A stretch of 48,921 bases of DNA from an uncultured Microcaldota archaeon (GTDB taxonomy: Archaea; Micrarchaeota; Micrarchaeia; Micrarchaeales; Micrarchaeaceae): the NCBI GenBank assembly GCA_903884115.1, contig CAISDH010000021.1, positions 1 through 48,921 on the forward strand, in the 5' to 3' direction. The notes beneath the pieces were generated by a model. The model was not told where the DNA came from and did no database searches. It was given only the letters and a program-made list of their open reading frames with translations. Each line of letters opens with the position of its first letter. The first letter of the stretch is position 1. A program made the translations under genes and the position numbers. Shown one piece after another: positions 6,226 to 45,683 of the stretch.

Positions 6226-6226
6226 G

Positions 6227-6493: not shown

Positions 6494-6509
6494 CGTATCA
6501 CACAAAGTA

Positions 6510-7133: not shown

Positions 7134-7140
7134 GCAATCC

Positions 7141-9208: not shown

Positions 9209-9212
9209 ACAA

Positions 9213-9731: not shown

Positions 9732-9738
9732 GATATCA

Positions 9739-10119: not shown

Positions 10120-10123
10120 TGCA

Positions 10124-11512: not shown

Positions 11513-11517
11513 CGTTA

Positions 11518-12631: not shown

Positions 12632-12639
12632 TTCTGCAC

Positions 12640-12933
12640 CTATAACTTCCGTTTCTTGTAGTACTTCAAGCTTTTCTCGATGCGCTCATGAGGTCTGAAG
12701 TCTATCTCTTCACCGTTCACAACAAAGCCCTGCCCGTTGTGGCGGAACCGGAACACGCAGCTCTTCTTGACGACCTTCCTTGTCGCATCATCGCATTTGA
12801 TAAGCAGCAGATTCTTCGTTTCGTTTATTATCCTGCCTTTAACGCCTATCTGCGAGCGATCGCTGCAGTTTATGACCTCTGCATCCAAGCCTATAAGCTC
12901 GTGCAGCACTATGCTCTTGTTATTGTAGCTCAT
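12640..12933 (-). CDS. rnp1: RNase P protein component 1 (Rpp29/Pop4 family)
   Basis: 97 residues with the Sm-like beta-barrel of archaeal Rpp29: ELIGLDAEVINCSD, GVKGRIINETKNLLLI, KVVKKSCVFRF and the GEEIDFRPHERI closing block. Together with Rpp21 it supports the specificity domain of the RNase P RNA in tRNA 5' maturation. It is the first gene of the ribosomal operon here. The 98-base gap upstream (12934-13031) contains TTTAAAT directly before the start but no well-placed TATA box. Confidence 0.9.
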   Translation of the reverse strand: MSYNNKSIVLHELIGLDAEVINCSDRSQIGVKGRIINETKNLLLIKCDDATRKVVKKSCVFRFRHNGQGFVVNGEEIDFRPHERIEKSLKYYKKRKL

Positions 12934-13031
12934 AGATTTAAACCTTTGCGCTAAGTCCGTACCTGCCGTTTACAGGTGCATCTCGCCATTCATTAGACTT
13001 ATTGGACAGATATGCCCCTGTGCAGCGCCCG

Positions 13032-14252
13032 CTACCTTATGATTACCCTGTCTGCAACGCCTGTTATCCTGTCAACATCGTAGCGCAGCACGCTGCCGTA
13101 CTCTGTCTTCACGAATATCAGCCCGTGCCTGGGATCAACAGTGGTTATCTTGCCTATATAGGCGCCTATCTCGTTGATTACGTGCTTGCCCTTTATCTTG
13201 GCTTTTTTTATCGCGCGCACGCGCAGGAATGTGCTGAACGCAGATACGCCGTAGCCTATCGCCAGCCCCACTGCCCCGAATAGCAGGAACTCCCAGAAGT
13301 ACAGCTGGCCGACTATCCATGCGGATGCGATGTACATCATCGATACCGCCACTATCGCATAGCCTATGTAAGCGCCCTGCGTTATCGTCCTGTAGCGCAT
13401 GCGCTTGTTTCTCAGGTCTATGACCCTGCCTGCAAGGTACAGCAACAGGCATATCGGGAAGAGCGTCAGGAAGCCCTCAACGAAGCTTGCGCCTGTCACG
13501 AGCCCGTTCGTAGTTGTGGAAGCTGCGCCTGCGTACGATCCGTATGCCACAATGATGCTTATCAAGAAGAACAGTATGGAGCCTATATAGAAGATGAAAC
13601 TGAGCCTCTCCGCGCTGAAGCCGAGGCCCCTGAATGACTCGGAGAGCGCATCCATCAGGCCGAAGCCCTGCAATATCAGGTATATGCCTATAAGCGCCAC
13701 GGGGAACTCCCATCCCAGCTTGAGGTAGTAGCTCAGCGCAAAGAGCAGCAGAAGTATCGCAGGTATGCCGAACACTATCCTTGCATAGTGCGGCTCCTTG
13801 AGCTTTTCAAGCACTGTGAAGTACGTGTTTTCCAGTTGTTCTGCCTGCTTCATGCGCACAAGGTCGACGCTGTTGAGCTTTATCCTGTTCTTCAGCAGCG
13901 GCACCACGCGGGAGTCGCTCGCGCCGTCAGTGACAAGCACGCACGAATCGCTCTTCAGCCGATCAACAACGCTCTCTATCTGCCTGGACAGCTCCCTGTC
14001 CGCGACATAGCCTTCCTTCTCGGCACCGGTTATCGTCGCAATAGAAACGGAAAAGCCCTTCTTCTTCAGCTCGTCATACTTGCGCACGGCCTCGAACATC
14101 GCGTTCGCATCGGAATCCTGGGGGTCTGCAAGCGCAAGCTTTGAAGCCGCGTGCAGATTGTCGCTCCTGCCTATCACTGGACCAACTATCTTTGCCTTCT
14201 TATATAGGTCGTTGTCGGCGTCGACATCCAGTACAAGAATCCTCTCAGCCAT
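13032..14252 (-). CDS. DUF373 family integral membrane protein
   Basis: 406 residues from the ATG at 14252 (MAERILVLDVD). The N-terminal half is a cytoplasmic Rossmann-like domain with VLDVDADND and LVTDGASDS motifs. Then come about seven hydrophobic segments between residues 160 and 345, and a C-terminal cytoplasmic segment with GAYIGKITTVDPRHGLIF. This matches archaeal DUF373, a family of unknown function. The longer frame to 14282 is rejected because a TATA box (14279-14289) overlaps it and predicts transcription starting near 14258. It stands alone between the ribosomal operon and a divergent small gene. Confidence 0.85.
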   Translation of the reverse strand: MAERILVLDVDADNDLYKKAKIVGPVIGRSDNLHAASKLALADPQDSDANAMFEAVRKYDELKKKGFSVSIATITGAEKEGYVADRELSRQIESVVDRLKSDSCVLVTDGASDSRVVPLLKNRIKLNSVDLVRMKQAEQLENTYFTVLEKLKEPHYARIVFGIPAILLLLFALSYYLKLGWEFPVALIGIYLILQGFGLMDALSESFRGLGFSAERLSFIFYIGSILFFLISIIVAYGSYAGAASTTTNGLVTGASFVEGFLTLFPICLLLYLAGRVIDLRNKRMRYRTITQGAYIGYAIVAVSMMYIASAWIVGQLYFWEFLLFGAVGLAIGYGVSAFSTFLRVRAIKKAKIKGKHVINEIGAYIGKITTVDPRHGLIFVKTEYGSVLRYDVDRITGVADRVIIR

Positions 14253-14278
14253 GCATTCACAATAATAGGGGACAAGCA

Positions 14279-14289
14279 GCATAAAAAGC
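14279..14289 (-). promoter_or_regulatory. TATA box for the DUF373 gene
   Basis: Minus strand GCTTTTTATGC is centred about 32 bases from the ATG at 14252. This spacing predicts a nearly leaderless transcript and decides the start. Confidence 0.6.
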
Positions 14290-29395: not shown

Positions 29396-30169
29396 ATGAA
29401 AGTCTTAATACTGGCCGGCGGATATGGGACTAGGCTGAGCGAAGAGACTTCGGCAATACCAAAGCCACTGGTAGAGATTGCCGGGAAGCCCTTGATATGG
29501 TATGTGATGAAGACCTATTCTCACTACGGGTTCAACGACTTCGTGGTTGCGTGCGGCTACAAGGGTGAGCTGCTCAAGGAATATTTTGCGCACATGTCCC
29601 GCTATTCAAGCGACTTCACTGTGAACATGGCCAACCATGATATGGACATCATAAAGGACAAAAGAGAGAAATGGAAAGTTACGCTCATAGACACTGGCCT
29701 TGACACTCTCACAGGGGGCCGGATGAGGCGGCTTGCGAAGTATATAGACGGCGACACATTCATGCTGACGTATGGCGACGGAGTCTCGGACATAGACATT
29801 GACAAACTGCTGACCTTCCATAAATCCCATGGTGGGAAGGCAACCATAACCGCGGTAAGGATGCCGAGATTCGGCATAGTGAACCTGGAGAAGAGTGGAA
29901 AAGTGCTATCCTTCCAAGAAAAGCGGCTGGAGGACAGCCCGTTCATAAACGGTGGCTTCATGGTCCTCTCGAAGAGCGTGCTTGACTATATCAAGGATGA
30001 CAAGACTGCCTTTGAAACTTATCCGTTGCAGAAGCTGGCCGAAGAGGGCGAGCTGTATGCTTACAAGCATGAAGGGTTCTGGAAGTGCGTAGACACTCTA
30101 AGGGACAAGCGCGAGCTCGAAGACATCATGAATAGCAACGATGATAAGGTCAAATTATGGAAAGCTTGA
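29396..30169 (+). CDS. rfbF: Glucose-1-phosphate cytidylyltransferase
   Basis: 257 residues from ATG 29396. The nucleotidyltransferase signature LAGGYGTRLSEET and IPKPLVEI with the sugar-phosphate lysine are followed by LTYGDGVSDID (metal Asp) and FINGGFMVL. The order and the HMSRYSSDFTVNM block match RfbF/DdhA and not the dTDP enzyme RmlA. It makes CDP-glucose from CTP and glucose-1-phosphate, the first step toward 3,6-dideoxyhexoses. It is followed after 88 non-coding bases by the split transketolase and CDP-glucose dehydratase genes. Confidence 0.93.
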   Translation: MKVLILAGGYGTRLSEETSAIPKPLVEIAGKPLIWYVMKTYSHYGFNDFVVACGYKGELLKEYFAHMSRYSSDFTVNMANHDMDIIKDKREKWKVTLIDTGLDTLTGGRMRRLAKYIDGDTFMLTYGDGVSDIDIDKLLTFHKSHGGKATITAVRMPRFGIVNLEKSGKVLSFQEKRLEDSPFINGGFMVLSKSVLDYIKDDKTAFETYPLQKLAEEGELYAYKHEGFWKCVDTLRDKRELEDIMNSNDDKVKLWKA

Positions 30170-30257
30170 GAATAGCAGAATGAACAATATCGATACGGCG
30201 TCGTTAAGGGAAGGTCTGGAAAAACAAGGAAATTGATGGCCGAGAACATCGGCTTTT

Positions 30258-31040
30258 ATGATGAATATGGGAATGACAAATGTGCCAGATCTAAAGTCCA
30301 TAGCTAACGAGCTCAGAAAAGAGCTTGTAGTCGTGCACGCTGCCGCGAATGCACCCCACATAGGCTCTGATCTCTCGTGCATAGACATACTCATAACGCT
30401 GTATTTCAAGGTTCTGGGCAAGAACGACCATTTCATACTAAGCAAGGGGCACGCTGCGCTTGCACTGTACGCCGTCTTGCACAAGAAGGGCATAATATCT
30501 GCAGACGATTACGGCTCTATCGGGAAGGATGGGTCTTTGCTGGCAGAGCACCCCCTTCACGGGATGAAAGGTGTTGAGGTGGCGACCGGATCCCTGGGCC
30601 ACGGACTTTCTATTGCGGCAGGGATGGCCCTTGTCAATAAACGTGACAACAAGAGCGGCACCACATATGTGCTGCTGGGCGATGGAGAGTGCCAAGAGGG
30701 CAGCATCTTCGAGGCCATGAACTTCGCAGTTAGAGAACGCCTGAACCATCTTGTTGCGATAGTTGATAGCAACAGATGGCAGGGACTAGACAGGACGCTG
30801 TTAAACGCAGAAACGGTAAATAAGGAGTTCTCCGCCGCCGGATGGACTGTAAATGAGATAGATGGCCACAACTTCGATGAGATTGCTGCCGCACTAAAAT
30901 CAAATTCAGATGCGCCCACGCTTATCATTGCAAACACAATTCTAGGGAAGGGCATCAAGTCAATGGAGGACAAACTTGAATGGCACTACAGGTCTCCAAG
31001 CGGCAATAGTGTAAAGGATTTCATATCGGAGATATCATGA
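30258..31040 (+). CDS. Transketolase-like enzyme, N-terminal (TPP-binding) subunit
   Basis: 260 residues, only the first half of a transketolase. HIGSDLSCIDIL, SKGHAALALYAVL, TGSLGHGLSIAAGMA and the TPP/metal motif GDGECQEGSIFEA at about 141-153 are intact. Family members with separate N and C chains are common in archaea and in polysaccharide clusters. It overlaps the C-terminal subunit gene by 4 bases, so an alpha2-beta2 complex is expected. Placed between rfbF and rfbG it more likely transfers a two-carbon ketol unit to a sugar nucleotide than works in the pentose phosphate pathway; that is inference. Confidence 0.9.
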   Translation: MMNMGMTNVPDLKSIANELRKELVVVHAAANAPHIGSDLSCIDILITLYFKVLGKNDHFILSKGHAALALYAVLHKKGIISADDYGSIGKDGSLLAEHPLHGMKGVEVATGSLGHGLSIAAGMALVNKRDNKSGTTYVLLGDGECQEGSIFEAMNFAVRERLNHLVAIVDSNRWQGLDRTLLNAETVNKEFSAAGWTVNEIDGHNFDEIAAALKSNSDAPTLIIANTILGKGIKSMEDKLEWHYRSPSGNSVKDFISEIS

Positions 31041-31963
31041 GACGTGCATTTGTAAACGGATTGCTGGACATAATGGGGACTGAAAGGAAAGAAAGCAAGG
31101 AGCTTACCTATCTGCTAGCCGGTGATCTCGGATTCTCCGCATTTGAAAATATACGGGAAGATTATCCTAAGCGCTTCATGAACATGGGCCTTTCAGAGCA
31201 GAATATGGTAGGTGTATCTGCAGGCATGGCATACGCAGGCAAAAAAGTGTTCCTTTATTCAATAATACCCTTCTTGCTGTACCGTACCTTTGAACAGGTC
31301 CGGAATGACCTGTGCTATCCCCGTCTTCCGGTTAGGATGGTCGGCGTAGGTGCAGGCCTGGCGTATGCCGACGCAGGAGCAACCCACCAACCACTAGAAG
31401 ATTTGAAGGTGGCAGACGCTCTGCCCAATCTGACAATCCTGAACCCCTCTGATGCACAGGAAGTCGGGCTGTTCATGCAGAAAATCGACAGCATAAAAGG
31501 CCCATCATACATGCGGCTTTCAAAGAACGAGGATATCGTGCTGCACACCGAAGACCTGCGCATCAACATAGGCAAAGCTCTAAGACTGGTCACAGGCAAA
31601 AGAATATTGATAGTATCGAGCGGAGTCCTTACCAAGGTGGCGCTCGAAGTTGCTGGCCTGCTCAACAAGGGCGAGAAAGGTGCTGCCGAGGTGCTGGAAA
31701 TACACACATTCAAGCCTTTTGACTATGGTGCAGTCATAGGCTCTGCAAGGGGCAAAGAGCTGATAGTGACCATAGAAGACAATACCGGAGCTCTTGCTGA
31801 GAAAGTCGCAAGCGCACTGGCTGGAAAAGAGGTCCAGAAGTTCCTTTCTTTCAAATTGCCCGATGAGTTTACGCATGTTGCCGGCACCAAAGAATACTTA
31901 TTCAAGAGCTATGGCATAAGTACATCAGACATTTATGGCAGGATCAAGAGTGTAATGAAATGA
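31037..31963 (+). CDS. Transketolase-like enzyme, C-terminal subunit
   Basis: 308 residues. The Pyr domain carries the TPP-activating glutamate in MGLSEQNMVG (Glu54) and AGMAYAGKKVFLYSIIPF; GAGLAYADAGATHQPLEDL is the substrate-side loop. A transketolase C-domain follows (KRILIVSSGVLTKVALEVA). It completes the enzyme begun by the upstream gene. It overlaps rfbG by 4 bases, so all three are translationally coupled. Confidence 0.9.
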   Translation: MRRAFVNGLLDIMGTERKESKELTYLLAGDLGFSAFENIREDYPKRFMNMGLSEQNMVGVSAGMAYAGKKVFLYSIIPFLLYRTFEQVRNDLCYPRLPVRMVGVGAGLAYADAGATHQPLEDLKVADALPNLTILNPSDAQEVGLFMQKIDSIKGPSYMRLSKNEDIVLHTEDLRINIGKALRLVTGKRILIVSSGVLTKVALEVAGLLNKGEKGAAEVLEIHTFKPFDYGAVIGSARGKELIVTIEDNTGALAEKVASALAGKEVQKFLSFKLPDEFTHVAGTKEYLFKSYGISTSDIYGRIKSVMK

Positions 31964-33012
31964 CCCATCTCTCTAATTTCTATAAGAACAAGCAGGTTCT
32001 AGTCACAGGCCATACGGGCTTCATAGGTTCATGGCTCACTTTGTGGCTTACTGAATTGGGTGCTGACGTAATCGGCTTTTCTTTAAAACCCCCCTCTAAC
32101 CCTTATCACTATAGATTTCTGGGCCTCGAGGACAAAGTAACCAACGTACGTGGCGACATACGGAAAAAAGACCAAGTGCTCAATCTGATAAAGAAGCATG
32201 AACCAGAAGTAGTATTCCACTTGGCTGCCCGTCCGATACTTCTAGACTCCTATATCGATCCCATCGATACATACATTACAAATGCGATAGGCACACTGAA
32301 CTTGTTGGATGCGATAAGAAGGACTGGCAAGACAAAAGCCATACTTAACATGACCACTGATAAGGTCTACGAGAACAAAGGAACAAGAGTGGCTTATAAA
32401 GAAGATGATAAACTTGGTGGATACGATCCCTATAGTTCTAGCAAGGCCTGTTCAGAGCTGATAACAAAATCCTACAAGAACAGCTTCCTGTCAGATGCGG
32501 GAGTTGCGACAGTGCGCGCCGGGAACATTATCGGAGGTGGGGACTGGGGCGCGTTAAGGCTCATGCCTGATCTCATACTCTCTCATGTGAATAACAACAC
32601 AATAACAATAAGAAATCCAAGCGCCATACGGCCTTGGACTTATGTGCTGGACTTCCTGAACGGCTATCTTACCCTTGGAGAGAAACTCTATACTGATCCA
32701 AGCAGGTACTCAGGAGCATGGAACTTATCATCCAGTTATGCGAAGACAGTGATGGATCTGATAACGGAAATGTCGAAATATCTAAACATCAAATACAAAG
32801 TCCATAACGGCCGTAAAGGGCATGAAGACATGATTCTGTTGCTGAATTCTGATAAATCCAAGAAAGAACTGAGGTGGAAACCCATGAACAGTTTTGAGGA
32901 CACTGTAAGAAGCACTGCTTCATGGTATGCTCACTTCTACAAGGATCACAGAGTTCCATTCACCTACTCGCGGACGCAACTCTCCGAGTTTAAAAAACGA
33001 TTGCATGAATAA
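31960..33012 (+). CDS. rfbG: CDP-glucose 4,6-dehydratase
   Basis: 350 residues of extended SDR type. The NAD-binding GHTGFIGSW is at 17-25. The catalytic triad region has MTTDKVYEN (Thr133, Asp134, Lys135) and Y158-x3-K162 in YDPYSSSKA. ARPILLDSYIDP and GNIIGGGDWG match RfbG. It converts CDP-glucose to CDP-4-keto-6-deoxyglucose, the substrate of RfbH located on the other strand. The base composition is more AT-rich than in the housekeeping half, as for the next gene. Confidence 0.93.
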   Translation: MTHLSNFYKNKQVLVTGHTGFIGSWLTLWLTELGADVIGFSLKPPSNPYHYRFLGLEDKVTNVRGDIRKKDQVLNLIKKHEPEVVFHLAARPILLDSYIDPIDTYITNAIGTLNLLDAIRRTGKTKAILNMTTDKVYENKGTRVAYKEDDKLGGYDPYSSSKACSELITKSYKNSFLSDAGVATVRAGNIIGGGDWGALRLMPDLILSHVNNNTITIRNPSAIRPWTYVLDFLNGYLTLGEKLYTDPSRYSGAWNLSSSYAKTVMDLITEMSKYLNIKYKVHNGRKGHEDMILLLNSDKSKKELRWKPMNSFEDTVRSTASWYAHFYKDHRVPFTYSRTQLSEFKKRLHE

Positions 33013-33988
33013 GCTTGGAATATACATCCCAACTCGTAACAGAAGAGACGACCTGGAAAAATGCATAAGGCACTTCATACCCCAATTGAAGAAATACGGG
33101 CTTTCTATCTACATATCTGACAACAACTCTACCGACGGAACTGAAGAGGCACTCAAGGTTCTAAAGAAAGAGTACCGTAACATATTCTACAAGAGGAACA
33201 GAAATAAGCTTGGAGGCACTTACGCGTCTAATCTGATAAATTTGCTTGGCATGGGCGATACCGAATTCGCCTGGATATTCGGCGATGACGACATAGTGAA
33301 GGAACATGCAATTGACACTATACTGAAGCATCTAGAGGGCGGATGCGATTTCCTGCAGATCAATGCAGAGGTGTGGAATGACTCATTCTCTAAAAAATTC
33401 GAGGATCTGAAGATACACGCAAGAAATGACGTAGCCTATTCGAAGGGCGACCATGCTGCCGTGCTCTCTCAAGCAAAAAGCGGCTATGCTGGGTTCATGG
33501 GCAGCATAATAACAAGGACGCGATACTTGAGAAGTGAATTGAGAAAGATAAAGGACGATGATCTGGCACAGAAAGAGTTTTTGCACACAACGCTCTTCTT
33601 CAGAGCAATTGTAGGTAGAACTGGCATGCTGATAGCGCAGCCCCTGATAAAATATCATACAAGAAGCACTGTGCCTAATTTCGCGCTCAAGACGTGGTTG
33701 GTGAGTTTTCCAGCAGAATTAAAAGAGCTAAGTTCTGCTTACCCTGATGAAGTCCTTAAGGCAGCGGGCACACTTCCAACAATCAATTTGATCGGAATAG
33801 CGTGCATCAACAAGCTTCAAAATCCCCAAGAGACCGACACTTACAAAGCATATGTACGATCCAACAGCAATCTGGGCGTGCCTGCAAAGGCCGCTCTGCT
33901 CTCCATGTTGGATCTGCCTGACGCATTCGTACATTATGTGATATATCCGGTCATAAAGAGATCAAGAGACTTGACAATGGAACTCTGA
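33005..33988 (+). CDS. Glycosyltransferase family 2, abequosyltransferase (RfbV)-like
   Basis: 327 residues from ATG 33005, inside the end of rfbG (8-base overlap). The GT2 core shows IYIPTRNRRDDLEKC, YISDNNSTDGT and WIFGDDDIV. The layout, with LGGTYASNLINL before the DDD, resembles the 3,6-dideoxyhexose transferases of enteric O-antigen clusters. It would attach the deoxysugar made by this cluster to a lipid-linked glycan. Acceptor and exact donor are not predictable. The 150 bases after it hold no gene. Confidence 0.8.
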   Translation: MNKLGIYIPTRNRRDDLEKCIRHFIPQLKKYGLSIYISDNNSTDGTEEALKVLKKEYRNIFYKRNRNKLGGTYASNLINLLGMGDTEFAWIFGDDDIVKEHAIDTILKHLEGGCDFLQINAEVWNDSFSKKFEDLKIHARNDVAYSKGDHAAVLSQAKSGYAGFMGSIITRTRYLRSELRKIKDDDLAQKEFLHTTLFFRAIVGRTGMLIAQPLIKYHTRSTVPNFALKTWLVSFPAELKELSSAYPDEVLKAAGTLPTINLIGIACINKLQNPQETDTYKAYVRSNSNLGVPAKAALLSMLDLPDAFVHYVIYPVIKRSRDLTMEL

Positions 33989-34138
33989 GCATGTCTGCTA
34001 TCTGCCTTCAATAACAAGGACTTTCTCAATCAAGCGGAATGCTTTGCTACGGGCAGGGATGGGAAAGGAATAAATGCAGACGTTGCACTTATTCTCACAG
34101 TCGCTTTGACAAGATAATCGGGGCGCAGGACGAGATGC

Positions 34139-35044
34139 GTGCGAGTATTCATAACCGGTGCCGGGGGATTTATCGGGAGGAATGCATGCGAATATCTGGG
34201 AAAGAGGCACAAGGTTTTCGCTCCTTCCCACAGCGAGCTGGAGCTTAACGATGCCGAAGCAGTGCTTAACTATGTGCAGGAGCATGACATTGACGTGATA
34301 CTCCACTGCGCGAACAAGGGCGGTGGGCGCGGTGCCGTAGGGCTGCAGAGTGTCGTCGATGACAACCTGCGCAGTTTCTTCAGCATAGCAAGAGCCAGCA
34401 AGGAGGTCTCGCGAATATTCTATTACGGCTCCGGTGCAGAGTTCGACAAGTCCAGGGACTTGAAAGAGGTCAGGGAGGACCAATTCGGGGAACGTGTGCC
34501 AAAAGACGATTACGGCTTCTACAAATATGTGTGCAACAACCATGCAAGGGCCTCTGACAATATAACAAACTTGAGACTCTTCGGTGTCTTCGGGAAATAC
34601 GAGCAGTATGGGTTCCGCTTCATCTCTAATGCGATAGTAAAGAACCTGCTCGGCATGGACATAAAGGTAAAACAGAATGTAGTGTTCGACTTTCTATACA
34701 TAACGGACCTCATGAAAATAACAGAGCACTTCCTCAGCATCGACCCCAAATATAGAGATTATAACGTAACGCCGAGCGAATCAATAGATTTGCTGGACGC
34801 ATGTAAGATAATAAACAGCTCCGCCACTAAGGCATCAAAGGTCGAAGTGCTGAATCCTGGGCTGAACTTCGAGTACACAGGAAGCAACTCGAGGCTGATG
34901 GAAGAATTAGGACAATACCAGTTTATGAGCTACGGCGAGTCGATAACTGATCTCTACAAGTATTACGAAGAAAATATTGAACGCATAGACAGTACGCTTG
35001 TCATGGAAGACCCGTATCTCAAAAATGGCCAGGTCAGGAAATAG
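34139..35044 (+). CDS. NAD(P)-dependent SDR, sugar-nucleotide reductase/epimerase
   Basis: 301 residues, start GTG 34139. VFITGAGGFIGRN is the Rossmann motif; the catalytic Y-x3-K is in DDYGFYKYV, and SGAEFDKS is the preceding Ser region. NLRLFGVFGKYEQYGFRF and DFLYITDLMKI are normal extended-SDR blocks. Its place behind the RfbV-like transferase suggests the C4 ketoreductase that turns the CDP-4-keto-3,6-dideoxy sugar into a final hexose. Epimerase activity is an equal alternative. Confidence 0.8.
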   Translation: MRVFITGAGGFIGRNACEYLGKRHKVFAPSHSELELNDAEAVLNYVQEHDIDVILHCANKGGGRGAVGLQSVVDDNLRSFFSIARASKEVSRIFYYGSGAEFDKSRDLKEVREDQFGERVPKDDYGFYKYVCNNHARASDNITNLRLFGVFGKYEQYGFRFISNAIVKNLLGMDIKVKQNVVFDFLYITDLMKITEHFLSIDPKYRDYNVTPSESIDLLDACKIINSSATKASKVEVLNPGLNFEYTGSNSRLMEELGQYQFMSYGESITDLYKYYEENIERIDSTLVMEDPYLKNGQVRK

Positions 35045-35050
35045 GCAGTG

Positions 35051-36847
35051 CTATTCGTCCAGAGGTGGTATTATCATGTTCTGTCTGAATTCCTCCCTGC
35101 TTAGGAAGGGGTACATGTCCTCCATGGGCCTCGATACTAGCGTGCCGTCCGGTTTGGTGAATGAGCTCACAGCGGGCACGACCTCCTGGTCGCGTATGCA
35201 CATGACCTCGCAGATGACTGGTCCGGGATGCGCAAGTACGTCCCTGATGGTGTCTGCAAGAGTTGCGCTGCTGTCTGCCTTGAAGTATCTTATCCCATAG
35301 GCATCGGCGATTTTCTTTGTGTCAGGGAAAGAAACCCCAGAGGTACTGTCTGTCCCCATGAACCTAGAGTTGAAGAAATTGCGCTGGGTTGCTCTTATGG
35401 AGAGGTATCCGTCGTTGTTCCAGACGAATAGCTTGACAGGCAGGTTGTGATACACCAATGTCTGGAGCTCATGTATGTTCATCTGGAAAGAGCCATCGCC
35501 TGTGATACCTATCACGGCCTTCTTGTCACGCGCGAAACTGACTCCTACGCACGCAGGAAGAGTGTAACCCATCTCGGCCTGTCCTCCGGAGGTGATATAT
35601 CTCTGCCCCTCTTTGAGATTTATCGCCTGCGTGGTAACGTAGAACGCTGAACCCGCATCTGAAACTACCACTGCGTCAGGTTCCATGACTCTGGAAAGCA
35701 CATCAACAAAATAATAAAGGTTGATTCCTTTGCTGTCGTCCTTGTATTCTGAAAGGCACACTGGATACCTTTCTTTCCATTCTATGCACTTCACCGACCA
35801 CGAGGAGATGTCTTGCATTTTACCGAACTTTGCTGCCTGCAGAAACTTCTTGGCGTCCGCATTCACGAAGAGGTCTATATTTATCGTCTTCTTCTTGTGC
35901 TCTTCGGTGTCAATGTCAACTACTATCTTCTTTGCCGCGCGCGCAAATTTGGTATACTCGTGCGCCACTGAACTAACATGCATACTGCTGCCTATAGAAA
36001 GCACGAGATCCGAGTTCTGGACTGCAAAGTTTCCTGCCCTTGATCCCTTGCTTCCGATGCAGCCTATATATTGCGGGTGGCCTGTCGGCAGCACACCAAC
36101 GCCAAGGTATGGCGAAACGCAAGGGATCTTGTACTCTTCAACGAACCTCTTGAATTCCGGGATCGCCTTGGCAAGCATTATGCCATGGCCCATTATTATA
36201 ACGGGCCTTTTTGAAGCAGCTAGCAATTTACCGACTTCGGCCATCTCTTCGGCGGTCGGCTCTTCCTTGTAATTACTCTTCAATTCTCTCTCGTTGAAAT
36301 GTTTAAGAGACGCCTCGTCTATCTTTGTACTCTGCACGTCCATCGGAACATCTATCCACACTGGACCAGGCCGCCCGTGTATGGCCAGGTAAGCTGCTTT
36401 TTCTAAATGGTATGCTATTTCGCTTGGTTCGTTCACCATCACCGCGTATTTCGTGATAGGCTCCACGATTGAGACAATATCTGCTTCCTGAACTCCAAAA
36501 ACACGCAGATTAAGCCCGGAGTTCCTTTTTGTCTGGGCACGCTTGACCTGACCTGAGATGAACATACAGGGAGTGCTGTCCTGATATCCATTAAGCAGGC
36601 CCGTGATTGCGTTAGTGCCCCCGCAGCCTGTTGTTACGAAGCACGCCCCGATATTTCCGGTGTACTTTGCATAAGAGACTGCTGCCATTGCCGCCGCCTG
36701 CTCGTGGTGAGTGCAAACAGGCTTGATCTTCTGGTTCACGGCCATAGCATCCAGAAGGAACATCATCCCGCCTCCGCTGACCATGAATAGGTGTTTCACG
36801 CCGAGTTTAGAAAGAAAATCAAGTATGTAATCGGCTACGCGCATCAT
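35051..36847 (-). CDS. TPP-dependent enzyme of acetolactate-synthase fold, sugar-cluster type
   Basis: 598 residues from ATG 36847, directly after the aminotransferase stop with GTGATGTG ahead; the frame to 36952 would overlap that gene. Glu49 in THHEQAAAMAA is the cofactor-activating glutamate. The central domain spans about 195-330 and the TPP/Mg motif GDGSFQMN starts at 450. The beginning, VSGGGMMFLLDAM, matches members found in lipopolysaccharide clusters and not biosynthetic IlvB; no regulatory subunit gene is nearby. YerE, which adds a two-carbon unit from pyruvate to a CDP-4-keto-dideoxy sugar to make yersiniose, belongs to this superfamily. That activity is plausible here but unproven. 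Confidence 0.85.
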   Translation of the reverse strand: MMRVADYILDFLSKLGVKHLFMVSGGGMMFLLDAMAVNQKIKPVCTHHEQAAAMAAVSYAKYTGNIGACFVTTGCGGTNAITGLLNGYQDSTPCMFISGQVKRAQTKRNSGLNLRVFGVQEADIVSIVEPITKYAVMVNEPSEIAYHLEKAAYLAIHGRPGPVWIDVPMDVQSTKIDEASLKHFNERELKSNYKEEPTAEEMAEVGKLLAASKRPVIIMGHGIMLAKAIPEFKRFVEEYKIPCVSPYLGVGVLPTGHPQYIGCIGSKGSRAGNFAVQNSDLVLSIGSSMHVSSVAHEYTKFARAAKKIVVDIDTEEHKKKTINIDLFVNADAKKFLQAAKFGKMQDISSWSVKCIEWKERYPVCLSEYKDDSKGINLYYFVDVLSRVMEPDAVVVSDAGSAFYVTTQAINLKEGQRYITSGGQAEMGYTLPACVGVSFARDKKAVIGITGDGSFQMNIHELQTLVYHNLPVKLFVWNNDGYLSIRATQRNFFNSRFMGTDSTSGVSFPDTKKIADAYGIRYFKADSSATLADTIRDVLAHPGPVICEVMCIRDQEVVPAVSSFTKPDGTLVSRPMEDMYPFLSREEFRQNMIIPPLDE

Positions 36848-36851
36848 CACA

Positions 36852-38048
36852 TCACTTACCTGACTTGAGCGGGAGTTTTCCAGCAGCCACCTGCAGCCGC
36901 CGTATTCCTTCAGAGATTCGCTCCCTCGAAGTGGCGTAGCAGAGACGGACATAGCCCTCTCCGGCTTTGCCGAAGCTGCTGCCAGGTGTCACGGCAACTC
37001 CTGCCTTGTCCAGTGCATATTCTGCAAACTGATCGCTCGTCAAACCGGTTCCTGTTATGTTAGGGAAGACGTAGATCGCGCCGCCCGGTTTTAGGCACCG
37101 CATCCCAGGCACTTTGTTGAGGCCGTCGACCAGAAGGTCCCTCCTCGCCTTGTATTCTGCCATCATCTTATTCACTTCGGACTGGTCCCCGCGCAGCGCC
37201 TCCAAACCGGCCTTTTGTATAAAGGGAGAAACACAAGAGGATGTTGTCTGTAGCAGAAGGCTCATCTTTTCTATCACATCCTCAGGACCTATCGCCACTC
37301 CAAGGCGCCAGCCTGTCATCGCAAAGGCCTTGCTGAACCCGTTGAGCAGTATTGTGCGCTTCTGGCACTTGTCCCGTATGGATGGCGTGCTAAACTTCGC
37401 TATTTTCTCGAACATCATCCGAGAATACACTTCGTCGGTCAAGAGAAAAACATCCTTTTCCTCTGCTATGTCTGCCATTTGGGATATTTCTTCCGCAGTC
37501 ATGACTGAGCCTGTCGGATTCTGCGGCGAATTCATTATTATGAGGCGCGTCCTGTCAGTTATCCTTTTACGCACGTCATCAGGATTCATCCTGAACGCAT
37601 TCTCCTCCTTCAGGGGCACAGGCACTGCCTTGGCACTGCAGAACTTTATCGCAGAGTAATATGTAGGAAAGCCAGGATCCGGGGCGATCACCTCGTCGCC
37701 AGGTTCAACCAGGCAGCTTATCGCATAGTAGATGATGATGTTCGCGCCAGGACACACGAGAACCTGGTTCATTGTTGGTCGGAAGCCCCTTGAGGCTTCT
37801 GTCGCCTTGCAGATCGCTTCCCGAAACTCTATATCGCCATAAGAATTGGTGTAGTGCGTTTCCCCTCTTTGTATGGAATCGCATGCGGCGCGCACTATGT
37901 TCTGCGGCGTGCTGAAGTCTGGGTCGCCTATCTCGAAATGCACTATGTCCTTTCCTTCCTTCTCAAGCTGCTGAACTTTGGCCAGAATCTTGAACATAGG
38001 CTGCCCTTCCAATGCGTTAGCAGCTTTCGTAAGTCTGTATTTAATCAA
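36852..38048 (-). CDS. Class I (AspC-like) PLP aminotransferase
   Basis: 398 residues. GDPDFSTP at 41-48, SPQNPTGSVMT, the substrate Tyr region DEVYSRMM and Lys240 in LNGFSKAFAMTGWRLG are standard. The closest classes are aspartate/aromatic aminotransferases. The start would be TTG 38048 with GGTGAT immediately adjacent, an unusually tight spacing; ATG 37997 is possible but would cut the first helix. The promoter probably lies in 38060-38110 (CTATAAGGC, CTAAAAAG). It shares a transcript with the TPP enzyme, so it may supply the amino acid or keto acid used by it, or aminate a sugar. The gap to rfbH is 149 bases without a gene. Confidence 0.88.
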   Translation of the reverse strand: MIKYRLTKAANALEGQPMFKILAKVQQLEKEGKDIVHFEIGDPDFSTPQNIVRAACDSIQRGETHYTNSYGDIEFREAICKATEASRGFRPTMNQVLVCPGANIIIYYAISCLVEPGDEVIAPDPGFPTYYSAIKFCSAKAVPVPLKEENAFRMNPDDVRKRITDRTRLIIMNSPQNPTGSVMTAEEISQMADIAEEKDVFLLTDEVYSRMMFEKIAKFSTPSIRDKCQKRTILLNGFSKAFAMTGWRLGVAIGPEDVIEKMSLLLQTTSSCVSPFIQKAGLEALRGDQSEVNKMMAEYKARRDLLVDGLNKVPGMRCLKPGGAIYVFPNITGTGLTSDQFAEYALDKAGVAVTPGSSFGKAGEGYVRLCYATSRERISEGIRRLQVAAGKLPLKSGK

Positions 38049-38197
38049 ATCACCCGCGCCTTACAGTGTTACTATAGGAATAGCACATCTATCTTTTTAG
38101 CCTTATAGGACTGTCCCTATCAAATTCGCAAACTGGCGCAAAAAGAGTTCCCGCACACCAAGGGATCTGACGCGTGATCGCTGAGCAGTTTTGCTAT

Positions 38198-39523
38198 TTA
38201 TCTCTCTTTCTCCTTTACAAACTCGTCGAACACGCTTATGATGTACTCAAGCATCTGCTTGGTAAGTCCTGGATAGACGCCTATCCAGAATGTGTTGTTC
38301 ATCACGAAGTCAGAGTTCTCAAGTTTTCCTATCCTTTCCTGCTCCATTCCGATATAGGCTGGTTGCCTGACCAAGTTGCCTCCGAACAGCATCCTTGTCT
38401 GTATGCCTTTGGATTCCAGCCTCTCTACGATGTCGTTCTTAGTGAATTTGGCATCCTTTCTGACTGACAGCGGGAACCCAAATGGGCTGATGTCTGCTTT
38501 TGCGTACTTTTTCGGCATTATGAATACGTCATCATGCTCCTTTAGGCTGGAGAGGAGGAACTGGAAGTTCTCCTTTCTCTTTCTCAAGAATTCTGGCAGT
38601 TTCTTTAGCTGGGCGACTCCCACTGCAGCTTGCATGTCTGTGACCTTTAGGTTGTACCCGATATTGGAGTATGTGTATTTGTGGTCGTAGCCCCTGGGGA
38701 GCTCTCCAAGCTTCTGTCCGAACCTCTTTCCGCATGTGTTGTCCTTTCCCGCAGGGCAATAGCAATCCCTGCCCCAGTCGCGGAAAGACTCGACAAGCTT
38801 CTTGTAAATGGCATTGGAAGTCATAACTGCGCCTCCTTCTCCCATGGTCATCTGGTGCGCAGGATAGAAGCTAACCGTCCCAAACTCTCCAAAAGTTCCT
38901 ACCGGCTTTCCATCCCACTTGGCACCTACCGCATCGCAACAATCCTCTATGACATATAGTCCGTGCTCCTTTGCAACCTTCATCGTCGTGTCAAGGTCGA
39001 AAGGATTTCCAAGAGTGTGCGCCAGCATTATTGCCCTGGCTCCTTTTTCCGCGGCTTCCTCTATTCCAGCAGGGAGCGGGTTGTAAGTGCCTATCTCCGC
39101 GTCGACGAAGATGGGTATGAGGCCGTTCTGGTAGATCGGGTTGAGCGTTGTAGGGAAGCCGGTGGCGCAGGTTATCACCTTGTCTCCGCGCCTAAGCTTG
39201 TCTTTGCCGAGCGCGTTGCTTGTAAGCGCTGAGAGCGCAAGCAGATTTGCAGACGAACCAGAGTTCGTAAGGGAGCAATACCGCGTGCCGAAGAACTCTG
39301 CATACTCCTTCTCAAAGCGTTCAGCGTACTTTCCAGCTGTAAGCCAGAAATCGAGCGCACTATCCACTAGTGTTGTCATCTCTTCATAGTCGTAGATCCT
39401 GCCCGCGTAAGGTATCTTTGTCTTGCCAGGAACGAATTCCTGCTCTGTTCTGAGATTGGAGAACTGCTTTACTTTTTTAAGTATTTCCTCTCTGAGCGTG
39501 TTTTGCTCAACGTCTGATGTCAT
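38198..39523 (-). CDS. rfbH: CDP-4-keto-6-deoxyglucose 3-dehydrase (E1)
   Basis: 441 residues from ATG 39523 (MTSDVEQN); upstream in-frame codons fall in an AT-rich promoter. It is an aspartate-aminotransferase fold with two E1 hallmarks. His223 replaces the PLP lysine in YPAHQMTMGEGG. The 2Fe-2S ligands are C254-x-C256-x7-C264, offset by three from enteric E1 (H220, C251, C253, C261). It uses pyridoxamine phosphate to remove the C3 hydroxyl of CDP-4-keto-6-deoxyglucose. The partner reductase E3 (RfbI/DdhD) is absent from this window, so electrons must come from elsewhere. Confidence 0.95.
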   Translation of the reverse strand: MTSDVEQNTLREEILKKVKQFSNLRTEQEFVPGKTKIPYAGRIYDYEEMTTLVDSALDFWLTAGKYAERFEKEYAEFFGTRYCSLTNSGSSANLLALSALTSNALGKDKLRRGDKVITCATGFPTTLNPIYQNGLIPIFVDAEIGTYNPLPAGIEEAAEKGARAIMLAHTLGNPFDLDTTMKVAKEHGLYVIEDCCDAVGAKWDGKPVGTFGEFGTVSFYPAHQMTMGEGGAVMTSNAIYKKLVESFRDWGRDCYCPAGKDNTCGKRFGQKLGELPRGYDHKYTYSNIGYNLKVTDMQAAVGVAQLKKLPEFLRKRKENFQFLLSSLKEHDDVFIMPKKYAKADISPFGFPLSVRKDAKFTKNDIVERLESKGIQTRMLFGGNLVRQPAYIGMEQERIGKLENSDFVMNNTFWIGVYPGLTKQMLEYIISVFDEFVKEKER

Positions 39524-39578: not shown

Positions 39579-40658
39579 TTAAGATTGCTCTTGTAAGCCC
39601 TGTGCCGCGCCATGAACTTTCTCATAGACCTTTAGTGTTTCCTCTGCTGTCTTTCTCCATGTGAACTCCCTGGCGTAGTTCATCGCCTTCATGCGCAGTT
39701 GCTCATCGTACCCGTTGTCCTTCAGATCTTTTATTATCTGCGCCATGCGATCCTCATCTTCCACCTCATAGCAGTATTTTTTGACCTCTTCAGGAATTTG
39801 AGCTTTTTTGCTTATGATTACGGGCACTCCTCTCGCCTGGGCTTCAAGCAGCTCCATCTCAAATCCTGCGTACAGGACCGGATGCAGGTACACGTCGAAG
39901 CTGTCGTAGACGTTCACCATCTGATCGCTAGGAACGAATCCTTTGAACGCTATCCTGCTGTCTCCTGCAGCCATGCGTACCAGTTCGTCATAAATGCCTG
40001 CTGGCTTGCCCCATAGCTCATACCTGATGTCCTTGTCTGTAAGCTTCTTAAAGGCCCTCATGGTGAATGCAACGTTCTTTCCGGGCATGAATGAGCCAAG
40101 ATGTCCCACCACAAACGGCCTTCCTTTGTCCTCTTTAGGTTTGAGCGGCGTCTGAATGAACTCATCATCGACTCCTATATTCACTACAGAAATCCTGTCC
40201 TTGTCACATCCCAGCTTTATGGCCTCTTCCCTGACGAGTGTTGAGATCACAATCATATGATCAGAGCCCAGCGCCTGCTTCTGGCATGCCTCATTTATCG
40301 TGTTTCCTAAGAAGGAGCTGGCTTTCGGCATCGCTGCCAACGGATTGTCCTCATCGATCAGGCGAAACTCTGGCACGGTGGTTATGATTGTTGCTTTTCC
40401 ACGTCGAAACGGATCAAATGCAATAGGGGCAGGTATGTTTATTATGTCATAATAAGACAATTTTTTGACAAGCGTGAGCAGTGTGAATGAAAGTTCCCGC
40501 ATCAGTAGGTCATTACCAATGCCTAGCTCTACCTTGTCTATTGTGTGCTTTGACTTGAGTGCCAGGAGATTCTGCCATATGCAGTAGATGTATTTTTGCA
40601 CTCCTTGGCCTAGGTCTTTGTTAAAATTGCCCTTCATGCTGAGGATTCCAACCTTCAT
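39579..40658 (-). CDS. Glycosyltransferase family 4 (GT-B)
   Basis: 359 residues with the GT1/GT4 C-terminal half: VVGHLGSFMPGKNVAFTMRAFK, the ELWGKPAG segment, AFKGFVPSDQMVNVYDSFDVYLHPVLYAGFEMELLEAQARGVPVI with the E-x7-E nucleotide-sugar motif. The N-terminal acceptor domain begins MKVGILSMKGNFNKD. It would use a nucleotide sugar to extend a lipid-linked glycan on the cytoplasmic side. Shine-Dalgarno GGGAGAAA precedes ATG 40658. Confidence 0.87.
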   Translation of the reverse strand: MKVGILSMKGNFNKDLGQGVQKYIYCIWQNLLALKSKHTIDKVELGIGNDLLMRELSFTLLTLVKKLSYYDIINIPAPIAFDPFRRGKATIITTVPEFRLIDEDNPLAAMPKASSFLGNTINEACQKQALGSDHMIVISTLVREEAIKLGCDKDRISVVNIGVDDEFIQTPLKPKEDKGRPFVVGHLGSFMPGKNVAFTMRAFKKLTDKDIRYELWGKPAGIYDELVRMAAGDSRIAFKGFVPSDQMVNVYDSFDVYLHPVLYAGFEMELLEAQARGVPVIISKKAQIPEEVKKYCYEVEDEDRMAQIIKDLKDNGYDEQLRMKAMNYAREFTWRKTAEETLKVYEKVHGAAQGLQEQS

Positions 40659-40749: not shown

Positions 40750-41715
40750 TCATCTGCTCTGATTGCTCTTAAGATAGCTGATTGTCTTTTTGAGGCCTTC
40801 TTCAAGGCTTGTTCGTGGTTCCCATCCAAGCAACTTCTTGGCCTTTGAGTTGTCTCCCCTGAGCACATACGCATCAAGAGGCCTTTTCGGAGTAGCATTC
40901 CAGAATATATTTTTCTTGAAGTCCGTAAGTTTTGCAATAAGTTCTGCCGTTTCCTTTGTAGTGTATGCCTTCCCGGTGCAGAGCTGTATGTCCTCTCCTA
41001 TTGCTTTCTCATTTGCCAATGCCTTTAGGTACCCATCGACATGGTCGTCCACATACACCCAGTCCCTCACTGCGCCAGGATCGCCAAGGTAGACCTCTCC
41101 CTGCTTCAGCATCTGCGATATGGTGCGCTCTATGAAGAAATGGGCGTTATTCTTTCTGCCATAGGTGTTGTACGGCCTAAGCACAGTGAATGGGAAATTG
41201 TATGCCTTGTGCATGTACTTGAGGTACAGGTCGCTTGCGACCTTCGCTACTGCATAAGGGCTGTTAGGGTTCAGCGCAGATTCTTCTGTCAGCACCTCGC
41301 TCTTTTCCTTGAGTGTGGTGCCATACTCCTCGCTTGTGCCCGCAAAAATGAACTGTTTGAAGTTGTTCGCGTTTCGATAGCACGCCTCTGCAAGGTTCAC
41401 AGTTCCTAGGTAGTCCGTTTCGCCAATCTCTATGTAGTGGTCATACGAGAAGGACACTGCGCTGATTGCTGCCAGGTGTATCACGTAATCTGGCTGCGAC
41501 TCCCTGATTATATTCTTCACAGCTGGATAGTCTGTGAGGTTTGCGTAATGCATGAGGCAGTCAGTCCCTTTATTCATTGTGTACCTTCCGGTTACATACC
41601 TCTCAAGGATCTCTACCTCATAGCCTTTGGCCATCAGTTTCGGTATCAATTCAGATCCTATAAAGCCCGTACCTCCTGTAACAAGGACTTTTCCAGTCGG
41701 TTCATGCGCTACCAT
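40750..41715 (-). CDS. NAD-dependent epimerase/dehydratase (extended SDR, GMD-like)
   Basis: 321 residues. LVTGGTGFIGSELIPKL binds NAD; TSEEYGTT and Y-x3-K in SPYAVAKVASD form the active site; LRPYNTYGRKN and RDWVYVDDHVDGYLKAL close the fold. The SEEYG Ser-Glu-Glu pattern resembles GDP-mannose 4,6-dehydratase/GDP-6-deoxy-4-keto reductase relatives, so a 6-deoxysugar step is possible. A TATA-like TTTTAAAATAATTAAATT lies just upstream (41727-41744). Confidence 0.82.
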   Translation of the reverse strand: MVAHEPTGKVLVTGGTGFIGSELIPKLMAKGYEVEILERYVTGRYTMNKGTDCLMHYANLTDYPAVKNIIRESQPDYVIHLAAISAVSFSYDHYIEIGETDYLGTVNLAEACYRNANNFKQFIFAGTSEEYGTTLKEKSEVLTEESALNPNSPYAVAKVASDLYLKYMHKAYNFPFTVLRPYNTYGRKNNAHFFIERTISQMLKQGEVYLGDPGAVRDWVYVDDHVDGYLKALANEKAIGEDIQLCTGKAYTTKETAELIAKLTDFKKNIFWNATPKRPLDAYVLRGDNSKAKKLLGWEPRTSLEEGLKKTISYLKSNQSR

Positions 41716-44169: not shown

Positions 44170-45627
44170 TCACTTTATATTGTTGATCGCGAGCTTTGCG
44201 GTCCCACGGACTCCCCGCGTCTTGATGCACAACGGCACGAATCTTTTCAAATGATTAAAAGACCACAGATGCCTCTCCCATTCCCCGCCAGCATACTTGA
44301 ATAGCTCCTCTATCTCTGTGCTCTTCAGCTGCGGAGAGTTTATTACACTGTAATTCGCTCCGTCAAATTTGTTAAAGTCCTCTGAAGCCAACCAGCCGTT
44401 AGCCTTCACTTCGTCGTAAAACGGCGTACCTGGCAGCGGAGTGACGATTGAAATCTGCAGACTGTCCGGATCAAGTTTCTTGGCGAATTCTATGGTGGCT
44501 TTTATCGATTCTATGGTGTCCGTGGGGTGCCCGACGCTGAAGGTGGCATGTGCCCATATGTCCTCTTCCATGAGGAACTTCCTAAACGTAAGCGTCTTAT
44601 CCATGGAGATTATGCCTTTGTGCATCTGCTTCAATACTGCCGGATCTGCCGACTCCACTCCAAACTTCAGGCCTATGCAGCCTGCCCTCTTCATCAGGCG
44701 CACATTCTCGTGCGATATTGTTATGTCTGCCATGGCCGTCCATGGTATGTCCACTTTGTTCTGAATCATATAATTGCAGAGGTCCTGAAGATGCTTCGGA
44801 TTTATCGAGAGAGTGTCGTCATCAAAATATATCTGCTTTGCCCCGAACTCCTTCTTCACGTAGAGCATTTCTTCAACAACATTTTCAGGAGTCCTGACTC
44901 TGTATTTCGGATTTCTGTAGAACACATTTGTGTAACAGAACCTGCATCCGACAGGGCAGGATCTTGACGTCATCATCTGTACTGTGGGCTTGCCCCTGAG
45001 CGCAAAGTCGTTGTACATGTTGATTACGTGCTTCTGCCTTTCTGGGAACGGGTATCTTGAGATGTTGTCATCGATTGGCCTTAACCCGTTAGATACCACA
45101 GTGTCGCCCTTCCTCCAGATCAAGCCAGTCACGTTTGTAGGATCAAGCTCTTTGTTAACCAGCTCTGCGAGTGTCAATTCCATCTCGCCGATCAGAGCAA
45201 AATCTATGACGCTTTCACCTTTCATGACCTCTGTTCCAAGACCGGACACGTGGTATCCTGCCACGGCTATCTTAAGCTCTGGAACATCCGTCTTGATCTC
45301 GTGCAATAAGCGCATCAACAGTGAAAAACTGACAGTTGGCGTCTCTATAAGAAGCAGATCCGGACGTAATTGCGCCACGCGATCGCGGAATTCCTTCTCA
45401 TTCATAAGTTCTGCGCAGGCATCAAGGAACGTGATATCCGCACTGGAGTTGGCTCTCAAGTAACTAGAGGCGTATCCGAGGAAAAACGGGTACGGCAAAT
45501 ACATCAATGTCCTTTTGGCCAGAGAACGAGACATGTGGTAGCTATGGCTCCACCTGCTCCCTCCTTGTACGTAACGTCTGTTTTCATCGTACAAATATGC
45601 TGGCGGGTTTGCGATAAGAACTTTCAT
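44170..45627 (-). CDS. Radical SAM protein with N-terminal B12-binding-type domain
   Basis: 485 residues from ATG 45627, preferred over 45648 because TAATATAAATATTTG at 45649-45663 is the TATA box. The N-terminal 170 residues have the Rossmann-like cobalamin-binding fold (KVLIANPPA, LLLIETPTVSFSL, IAVAGYHVSGLGTEV) but no DxHxxG. The 4Fe-4S motif C224-x3-C228-x2-C231 is in SCPVGCRFCYTN, followed by YFDDDTLSIN and FGVESADPAVL. Relatives methylate or rearrange unactivated carbons in sugars, lipids and peptides. In this cluster a C-methylation of a sugar is plausible. Confidence 0.85.
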   Translation of the reverse strand: MKVLIANPPAYLYDENRRYVQGGSRWSHSYHMSRSLAKRTLMYLPYPFFLGYASSYLRANSSADITFLDACAELMNEKEFRDRVAQLRPDLLLIETPTVSFSLLMRLLHEIKTDVPELKIAVAGYHVSGLGTEVMKGESVIDFALIGEMELTLAELVNKELDPTNVTGLIWRKGDTVVSNGLRPIDDNISRYPFPERQKHVINMYNDFALRGKPTVQMMTSRSCPVGCRFCYTNVFYRNPKYRVRTPENVVEEMLYVKKEFGAKQIYFDDDTLSINPKHLQDLCNYMIQNKVDIPWTAMADITISHENVRLMKRAGCIGLKFGVESADPAVLKQMHKGIISMDKTLTFRKFLMEEDIWAHATFSVGHPTDTIESIKATIEFAKKLDPDSLQISIVTPLPGTPFYDEVKANGWLASEDFNKFDGANYSVINSPQLKSTEIEELFKYAGGEWERHLWSFNHLKRFVPLCIKTRGVRGTAKLAINNIK

Positions 45628-45683
45628 AGTTACAAATCCCTCATTCAAATATTTATATTAGCCGTTACTGCCTGCAGTTGTGA

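Follow-up and report, generated by a model that had tools for sequence, protein, structure and literature searches.

In this study, we analysed a sugar gene cluster on a 48,921-nt contig (CAISDH010000021.1, assembly GCA_903884115.1) from an uncultured Microcaldota archaeon of the order Micrarchaeales. This whole stretch is hereafter called the window, and positions refer to it. Next to genes for cytidine diphosphate (CDP)-sugar synthesis, the cluster encodes two different thiamine diphosphate (ThDP) enzymes. By sequence comparison, the first is a new, archaeal member of the known family of YerE-like carboligases. The second is a split transketolase from a clade in which two active-site residues are replaced and whose genes are linked to those of CDP-sugar synthesis; we propose it as an addition to a suspected kind of transketolase, one that accepts ketones. 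Taken in general form, a cell-surface sugar cluster with two ThDP-dependent branching arms acting on CDP-4-keto sugars has, in our view, somewhat better than even chances of being correct.

In the proposed pathway, both arms would share their start: RfbF would make CDP-glucose, and RfbG would convert it to CDP-4-keto-6-deoxyglucose. In the first arm, the split transketolase would move a two-carbon ketol (hydroxyacetyl) group from a ketose phosphate or hydroxypyruvate to the C4 ketone, giving a C4-branched 6-deoxyhexose. In the second, RfbH would remove the 3-hydroxyl to give CDP-4-keto-3,6-dideoxyglucose, to which the YerE-like enzyme would add an acyl group; its donor would be a 2-keto acid, perhaps provided by the adjacent aminotransferase. 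The short-chain dehydrogenase/reductase (SDR) encoded by sdr1 would reduce the branch ketone, and neighbouring glycosyltransferases would use the products.

Gene content and organization of the cluster

The gene set comprises eleven genes, from rfbF to sdr2, checked by open reading frame and profile scans (Pfam, NCBIfam):

29396..30169, + strand: RfbF, glucose-1-phosphate cytidylyltransferase (CDP-glucose maker); TIGR02623, 336 bits, cut-off 300
30258..31040, + strand: tktN, split transketolase (sugar-cluster clade), ThDP-binding half; Pfam Transketolase_N, best solved relative the N-chain of 6yak
31037..31963, + strand: tktC, pyrimidine and C-terminal half of the split transketolase; Pfam, Gly105/Ala113 at the human H416/D424 columns
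31960..33012, + strand: RfbG, CDP-glucose 4,6-dehydratase (CDP-4-keto-6-deoxyglucose maker); TIGR02622, 402 bits, cut-off 278
33005..33988, + strand: GT2 glycosyltransferase; Pfam, also after rfbG in genomes G100 and G162 (loci L038, L039)
34139..35044, + strand: sdr1, extended SDR, candidate branch ketoreductase; Pfam Epimerase
35051..36844, - strand: YerE-like ThDP carboligase, acetohydroxyacid synthase (AHAS) fold; JanthE 8rph, 452.8 bits, 100/100 clade with JanthE
36852..38048, - strand: class I aminotransferase, candidate donor supplier; Pfam/NCBIfam profiles
38198..39514 (alternative start 39625), - strand: RfbH, CDP-4-keto-6-deoxyglucose 3-dehydrase; NF011936, 669 bits, cut-off 423
39579..40658, - strand: GT4 glycosyltransferase; Pfam, 60% identical in G100
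40750..41715, - strand: sdr2, 4,6-dehydratase/epimerase-type SDR; 75% identical in G100

Here and below, G-numbers designate the genomes of a phylum set (n=295), G000 being the window's own, and L-numbers designate loci. The genes named in the original prediction, made from the window's sequence, were all present (rfbF, tktN, tktC and rfbG on the + strand; the ThDP enzyme, the aminotransferase and rfbH on the - strand), and profile scores confirmed them, RfbF, RfbG and RfbH all scoring above the curated NCBIfam equivalog cut-offs. In RfbH, a His stands in for the pyridoxal phosphate (PLP) Lys of most superfamily members (SFYPAHQMTMGEGG), a replacement that we take to be the hallmark of the 3-dehydrase type.

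On the + strand, rfbF is followed after 88 bases by tktN, tktC, rfbG, the GT2 gene and sdr1, with overlaps of 4 bases for tktN/tktC, 4 bases for tktC/rfbG and 8 bases for rfbG/GT2. The translational coupling predicted for rfbF, the transketolase and rfbG thus holds for tktN-tktC-rfbG; because of the 88 bases before tktN, rfbF is linked but not coupled. The - strand reads sdr2, GT4, rfbH, the aminotransferase and, 7 bases further, the ThDP enzyme, whose end lies 6 bases from that of the facing sdr1. This last gene (34139-35044) had not been named earlier, yet lies inside the cluster. The predicted archaeal setting also stood. The contig carries genes for ribosomal proteins S4e, L18 and L6, the small primase subunit, endonuclease dU and a DUF373 protein, and we consider it archaeal because of S4e, L18, the primase subunit, endonuclease dU and DUF373.

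A YerE-like carboligase in an archaeon

The genome was found to encode two TPP_enzyme_N proteins, that of the window and an IlvB-type one on another contig, with 32% identity between them. The nearest solved structure of the window enzyme was 8rph (452.8 bits), and the next was a plant AHAS (254 bits). The 8rph structure is that of JanthE, a YerE-like enzyme of Janthinobacterium (PMC12188165), which is the sole characterised YerE-like sequence in our comparison. A tree of 18 proteins placed the window enzyme in one 100/100 clade with JanthE and six other Micrarchaeota rows. The genome's own IlvB, three plasmid AHAS and the plant AHAS stood apart at 100/100, and five Micrarchaeota rows (G048, G034, G259, G096b, G039) formed a third clade. 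This check, set beforehand, bore out the YerE type that had been predicted.

The window enzyme and JanthE, 39% identical, have in common the motifs NNDGYLxI(K/R)xTQ and, at the C-terminus, DGxxVSxPxED, the latter being absent from the AHAS rows. The window enzyme has GDG for the CDG of JanthE, and K, S, H and A at JanthE sites 268, 293, 297 and 567. In AHAS, an Arg holds the carboxylate of the acceptor. At this column (JanthE P293), Arg was present in 5/5 AHAS rows, whereas the window enzyme has Ser and JanthE has Pro. Among the seven archaeal members of the JanthE clade, Ser occurs in five, Ala in one and Arg in one.

IlvB identity was ruled out for the window enzyme, given the separate IlvB of the genome, JanthE as nearest structure by bit score and the position outside the AHAS clade. 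The ThDP enzyme and the aminotransferase might also belong to amino-acid or keto-acid metabolism and lie in the cluster by accident. This appears very unlikely: the nearest NCBIfam model is that of acetolactate synthase (TIGR00118), at 386 bits and below its cut-off of 538, but IlvB is encoded separately, tree and motifs both place the enzyme with JanthE, and rfbF is found around most of its relatives, as detailed below. As a YerE-like enzyme, it would take an acyl anion from a 2-keto acid and pass it to a ketone. A review singles out the YerE-like enzymes as the one decarboxylase subclass for which the use of isolated ketones is known (PMC12247030). A YerE-like carboligase pathway in this archaeon is, in our judgement, likely.

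The company of RfbF, RfbG and RfbH is also that of the YerE-like enzymes (YerE of Yersinia pseudotuberculosis, ErwE and JanthE), from which the window enzyme, compared by sequence with JanthE alone, differs in being archaeal and in being preceded by a class I aminotransferase. Likewise, the yersiniose/erwiniose pathway includes RfbF, RfbG, RfbH, a ThDP carboligase and an SDR; the window adds to it a second carboligase, of the transketolase superfamily. A plasmid tblastn search gained no bacterial YerE-like locus, the 25 records listed of 93 being annotated as AHAS or unannotated.

Replacement of the phosphate-site His and acceptor Asp in the split transketolase

By Pfam, tktN and tktC are the ThDP-binding and pyrimidine/C-terminal halves of a split transketolase, and the nearest solved relative is the two-chain enzyme of Carboxydothermus hydrogenoformans (6yaj/6yak), by sequence and by Foldseek. 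A tblastn search with tktC gave matches in 111/295 genomes. The best 30 places corresponded to the window, 14 further sugar-type loci and 15 housekeeping loci; signature and tree served to define the sugar-type class, because the E-values of the two classes nearly touch (6.1e-49 in G235, 4.9e-48 in G203). Sixteen housekeeping rows were inspected (these 15 and a second copy of G179), the other matching genomes being taken as housekeeping by default.

At the H416 column (human numbering), Gly was found in 15/15 sugar-type archaeal rows and His in 16/16 housekeeping rows. At the D424 column, none of the 15 sugar-type rows had Asp, which was present in 16/16 housekeeping rows. In the window, Gly105 and Ala113 of tktC occupy these columns, where the C. 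hydrogenoformans enzyme has His and Asp, so that the pair lacks the phosphate-site His and acceptor Asp of pentose-phosphate transketolases. We take the two positions to be E. coli H461 and D469, from equal spacing and general knowledge. In E. coli transketolase, H461 normally binds the phosphate of natural substrates, and changes at D469 widen acceptor use (PMC3657141). On the donor side, His residues H34, H65, H98 and H243 of tktN are kept, and the same columns are kept in both kinds (14 sugar-type and 16 housekeeping rows); they presumably match human H37, H77, H110 and H258 in functional numbering. A Glu that we take to be the catalytic one is present in 114/114 sugar-type, housekeeping and plasmid rows (15+16+80+3). 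In the tktC tree, which included 20 of 80 fetched rows of the wider family, sugar-type and housekeeping transketolases were split at 100/99.

The tktC model (pLDDT 94.5) had the split transketolase 6yaj as its best Foldseek match. The pair could instead resemble DXS or AviB in donor use and transfer acetyl from pyruvate. VIA places the split transketolase and DXS chains on a par (Z 36-37), and some transketolase models were outscored by DXS models for tktC. For both halves, however, the top score of transketolase exceeded that of DXS, among models and among solved structures alike, and tktN keeps the His that we equate with E. coli H100. Replacement of this H100 by Leu was used to allow pyruvate as donor in E. 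coli transketolase (PMC10787763), and a role in attaching acetyl branches with the help of pyruvate has been proposed for AviB1/AviB2 (PMC4753412). Because VIA ranks the two folds alike, we leave pyruvate some weight as donor, and judge DXS- or AviB-like use quite unlikely.

Linkage to CDP-sugar genes

In stretches averaging 15 kb, rfbF or rfbG was present around 13/14 sugar-type copies (window excluded), compared with 0/18 housekeeping controls, from which the G179 copy adjoining rfbF was left out. Loose matches to sugar genes were obtained in 14/14 and 3/18 stretches, respectively. An RfbG-type match was found in 14/15 sugar-type genomes, the background being 43/295 at E <= 1e-40 (12 above cut-off), and RfbH above cut-off in 9/15, with a background of 27/295. 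Co-occurrence statistics were hypergeometric and ignore kinship between genomes. The nearest kin (G100, G162, G018, G248) share the order rfbF-SDR-tktN-tktC-rfbG, followed by the GT2 gene in G100 and G162. Among these four, RfbH above cut-off was found in G162 only.

In genome G179, a housekeeping copy lies in an operon with ribulose-phosphate epimerase (RPE) and transaldolase, 1 kb from a sugar-type copy adjoining sdr1. The whole operon (RPE, housekeeping split transketolase, transaldolase) runs into rfbF-rfbG-rfbH (L050:10235-16712). The proximity of a housekeeping copy to rfb genes is explained by its membership of this operon, and, with both in one cluster, the two kinds do not replace each other. 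The pentose-phosphate operon might feed ketol donor to the branching enzyme.

The window's own genome (92% complete) was searched for transaldolase and RPE, and none was found. No other transketolase was found in it either, the only other Transket_pyr gene being a pyruvate dehydrogenase-type E1 beta beside its E1 alpha. Two surveys of Micrarchaeota describe patchy pentose-phosphate genes, and a word search of their accessible text gave neither transketolase nor CDP (PMC5864196, PMC12892359). A pentose-phosphate role as first choice was set aside on the active site, the rfb linkage and the lack of a detected transaldolase or RPE. In keeping with the original prediction, the enzyme looks unlike a pentose-phosphate one by its active site and missing companions.

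The split transketolase might nevertheless branch no sugar and instead provide sedoheptulose 7-phosphate, erythrose 4-phosphate or a pentose phosphate as a phosphorylated precursor, either to the cluster or to metabolism. It has a transketolase fold and a basic residue at the R474 column, is the only transketolase found in its genome, and the sugar cluster of G179 does contain a true RPE-transketolase-transaldolase operon. Against this stand the failure to find transaldolase or RPE, the loss of the phosphate-site His and acceptor Asp in all 15 archaeal rows, the contrast in rfb linkage with the controls, and the second transketolase match that six genomes have besides the sugar type (G033, G215, G123, G179, G118, G105). 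We regard such a precursor role as unlikely.

For a transketolase that branches a nucleotide keto sugar, we put the chances at about even. They fall slightly short of that for the fuller proposal, in which the widespread split-transketolase clade with Gly and without Asp would add hydroxyacetyl to a ketone of CDP-keto and other nucleoside diphosphate-keto sugars and the archaeon of the window, using such an enzyme alongside the YerE-like one, would make two different branched sugars from one pool of CDP-4-keto-6-deoxyglucose.

One branched sugar or two

Both carboligases were found in 2/295 genomes, those of the window and of G235. In G235 they are on separate contigs, each with a different part of rfbG at its end, so that a single cluster is likely. 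The original prediction had taken the two carboligases as a sign of one branched sugar. Its reading of branching enzymes is supported as far as sequence comparison reaches; its single sugar may have to give way to two arms with different branches, because G100, G018 and G248 have the transketolase operon and no RfbH was found in them.

That the two enzymes are alternatives or successive steps for one sugar, with one product, would fit the finding of RfbF, RfbG, RfbH and sdr1 with both kinds of locus, and the apparent presence of both carboligases in one cluster of G235. Yet, with the thresholds applied, the transketolase occurs alone in 13 genomes, a ThDP carboligase alone in 9 (5 belonging to the JanthE clade and 4 to the second archaeal clade) and both in 2, and no RfbH above cut-off was found in G100, G018, G248 and G080, where transketolase and rfbG are present. 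We thus hold a single product to be fairly unlikely, and keep two arms as the preferred reading.

The distribution of sdr1 was also informative. It was found in 11/44 chosen genomes, 10 of which hold a carboligase of either kind (the exception being G094), and it lies beside either kind. Among 13 genomes with RfbH above cut-off and no carboligase at the thresholds used, one had sdr1. Reduction of a branch ketone therefore fits sdr1 better than that of a ring ketone, since its presence follows the carboligase and not RfbH alone. A PDB search with sdr1 gave 2 weak matches to dTDP-4-dehydrorhamnose reductase.

Putative donor-making neighbours of the YerE-like enzyme

Matches to the ThDP enzyme at E <= 1e-75 were found in 11/295 genomes, the window's included. 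Of the ten stretches around the other copies, seven had rfbF, five rfbH (>300 bits) and five sdr1. In G208, G187 and G252, a 4-hydroxy-2-oxovalerate aldolase and an acetylating acetaldehyde dehydrogenase (DmpG/DmpF-type, by Pfam) lie beside the YerE-like gene (L070:3215-6925, L073:37-4034, L074:5398-9276); NCBIfam cut-offs were passed by the two genes in G208 and, in G252, by the aldolase. These pairs are likely donor makers for an erwiniose-like branch. ErwE prefers hydroxy-keto acids, such as 4-hydroxy-2-oxopentanoate (PMC12247030).

In G235, a PLP enzyme of Cys/Met metabolism is beside the carboligase. The class I aminotransferase of the window, whose nearest solved relatives are aromatic and aspartate aminotransferases, occupies the position of those neighbours, 7 bases before the carboligase, and may supply its 2-keto acid. 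That it is the only class I aminotransferase of the genome was ruled out, a second one being present at G000:C23. Together, these neighbourhoods suggest that each carboligase is accompanied by donor-making genes of its own.

Other genes were seen beside such carboligases. An AroB-related sugar phosphate phospholyase (TIGR04425, above cut-off) adjoins the YerE-like gene of G057 (L072:11769-12839), and a Fic-domain protein adjoins rfbH and the carboligase in G235 (L069:4930-5823). In G096, two ThDP carboligases of different clades lie within 8 kb (L071:8366-15903), and the genome has two sdr1 copies.

The transketolase family beyond archaea

An earlier contig scan with tktC alone found no relative. 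A later scan gave at least 574 stretches related to tktC (tblastn E <= 1e-3), and the following figures concern the best 80 of these at least 574. Gly was found at the H416 column in 79 and Ala in 1; at the D424 column, one of the two search patterns fixes Leu/Ala, so that only the archaeal rows are free of selection there. Four of the 80 were archaeal. The loci had rfbF or rfbG in 20/80 cases, RfbH (>300 bits) in 12/80, and at least one SDR, RfbF, RfbG or DegT-type match, at loose thresholds, in 71/80. Many members thus appear to belong to other sugar settings, the CDP link concerning one part of the family, since rfbF/rfbG are present in 20/80 loci and sugar genes in 71/80.

A plasmid of Paenibacillus cellulosilyticus carries rfbF, rfbG, a methyltransferase gene, an SDR::tktN fusion and tktC. 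The fusion (L081:7097-9004) is 635 residues long, with the SDR as its first part and TktN, 38% identical to that of the window, as its second. On a Solidesulfovibrio plasmid, a transketolase C half near pseB and pseC (L083:6953-7891) is long-branched in the tree and falls on its sugar-type side.

Proposed ketone-accepting transketolases

Ketone acceptors have been proposed for the split transketolases of miharamycin and amipurimycin biosynthesis and for 13 further sequences, all from Streptomycetes, and are described as proposals only (PMC12247030). The window family, compared with these through the review's description, shares the sugar-building cluster and the proposed ketone acceptor, and differs in its distribution, being found within CDP-sugar clusters in Micrarchaeota and within sugar clusters in many bacteria. 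In a partial literature search, by title and start of abstract, no description of this family surfaced in branched-sugar, CDP-sugar or O-antigen settings or in connection with dideoxysugars of Micrarchaeota or other archaea, nor did any branched sugar of Micrarchaeota. The word archaea is absent from the accessible text of the review on ketone-accepting ThDP enzymes (PMC12247030).

Several observations weigh against our proposal. For the YerE-like arm, the AHAS-type Arg is kept by 1/7 archaeal members of the JanthE clade (that of G057) and by 5/5 rows of the second archaeal clade, some of which adjoin rfb genes (G039, G096), and in G235, the nearest kin, no such aminotransferase was seen next to the carboligase. 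Concerning sdr1, 14/24 carboligase genomes are without it, including the four nearest transketolase kin, which have another SDR between rfbF and tktN. For the transketolase, a basic residue stays at the R474 column (Lys/Arg in 15/15 archaeal rows), VIA fits the tktC model equally to DXS and 6yaj, and one housekeeping-type copy, that of G179, adjoins rfbF-rfbG-rfbH outside the 18 controls. In the wider family, 60/80 of the best loci were without rfbF or rfbG at the thresholds used, so that acceptors may differ across it. The absences in the window's genome are provisional, since the assembly is 92% complete, and the organism has no evident source of ketose phosphate donors. With no transaldolase, RPE or second transketolase found, fructose 6-phosphate and hydroxypyruvate are candidate ketol donors. 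Finally, the accessible text of the review states that no ketone-accepting transketolase has been characterised in vitro (PMC12247030).

Acceptance of ketones by transketolases was named as an open question in this 2025 review (PMC12247030). The present clade enlarges the set of candidates and brings both a signature in the active site and, in the CDP-keto sugar of neighbouring genes, an acceptor at hand, which makes the question directly testable. YerE-type branched-sugar chemistry would be extended to archaea with very small genomes, and enzymes making tertiary alcohols from ketols would serve biocatalysis.

Other features of the window

Positions 5144-14282 of the window, on the same contig as the sugar cluster, group S4e, L18 and L6 with endonuclease dU, a protein with an RRP4 N-terminal domain and DUF373. 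In the sugar region itself, positions 44170-45648 encode a B12-binding radical SAM protein, which may contribute a further sugar modification.

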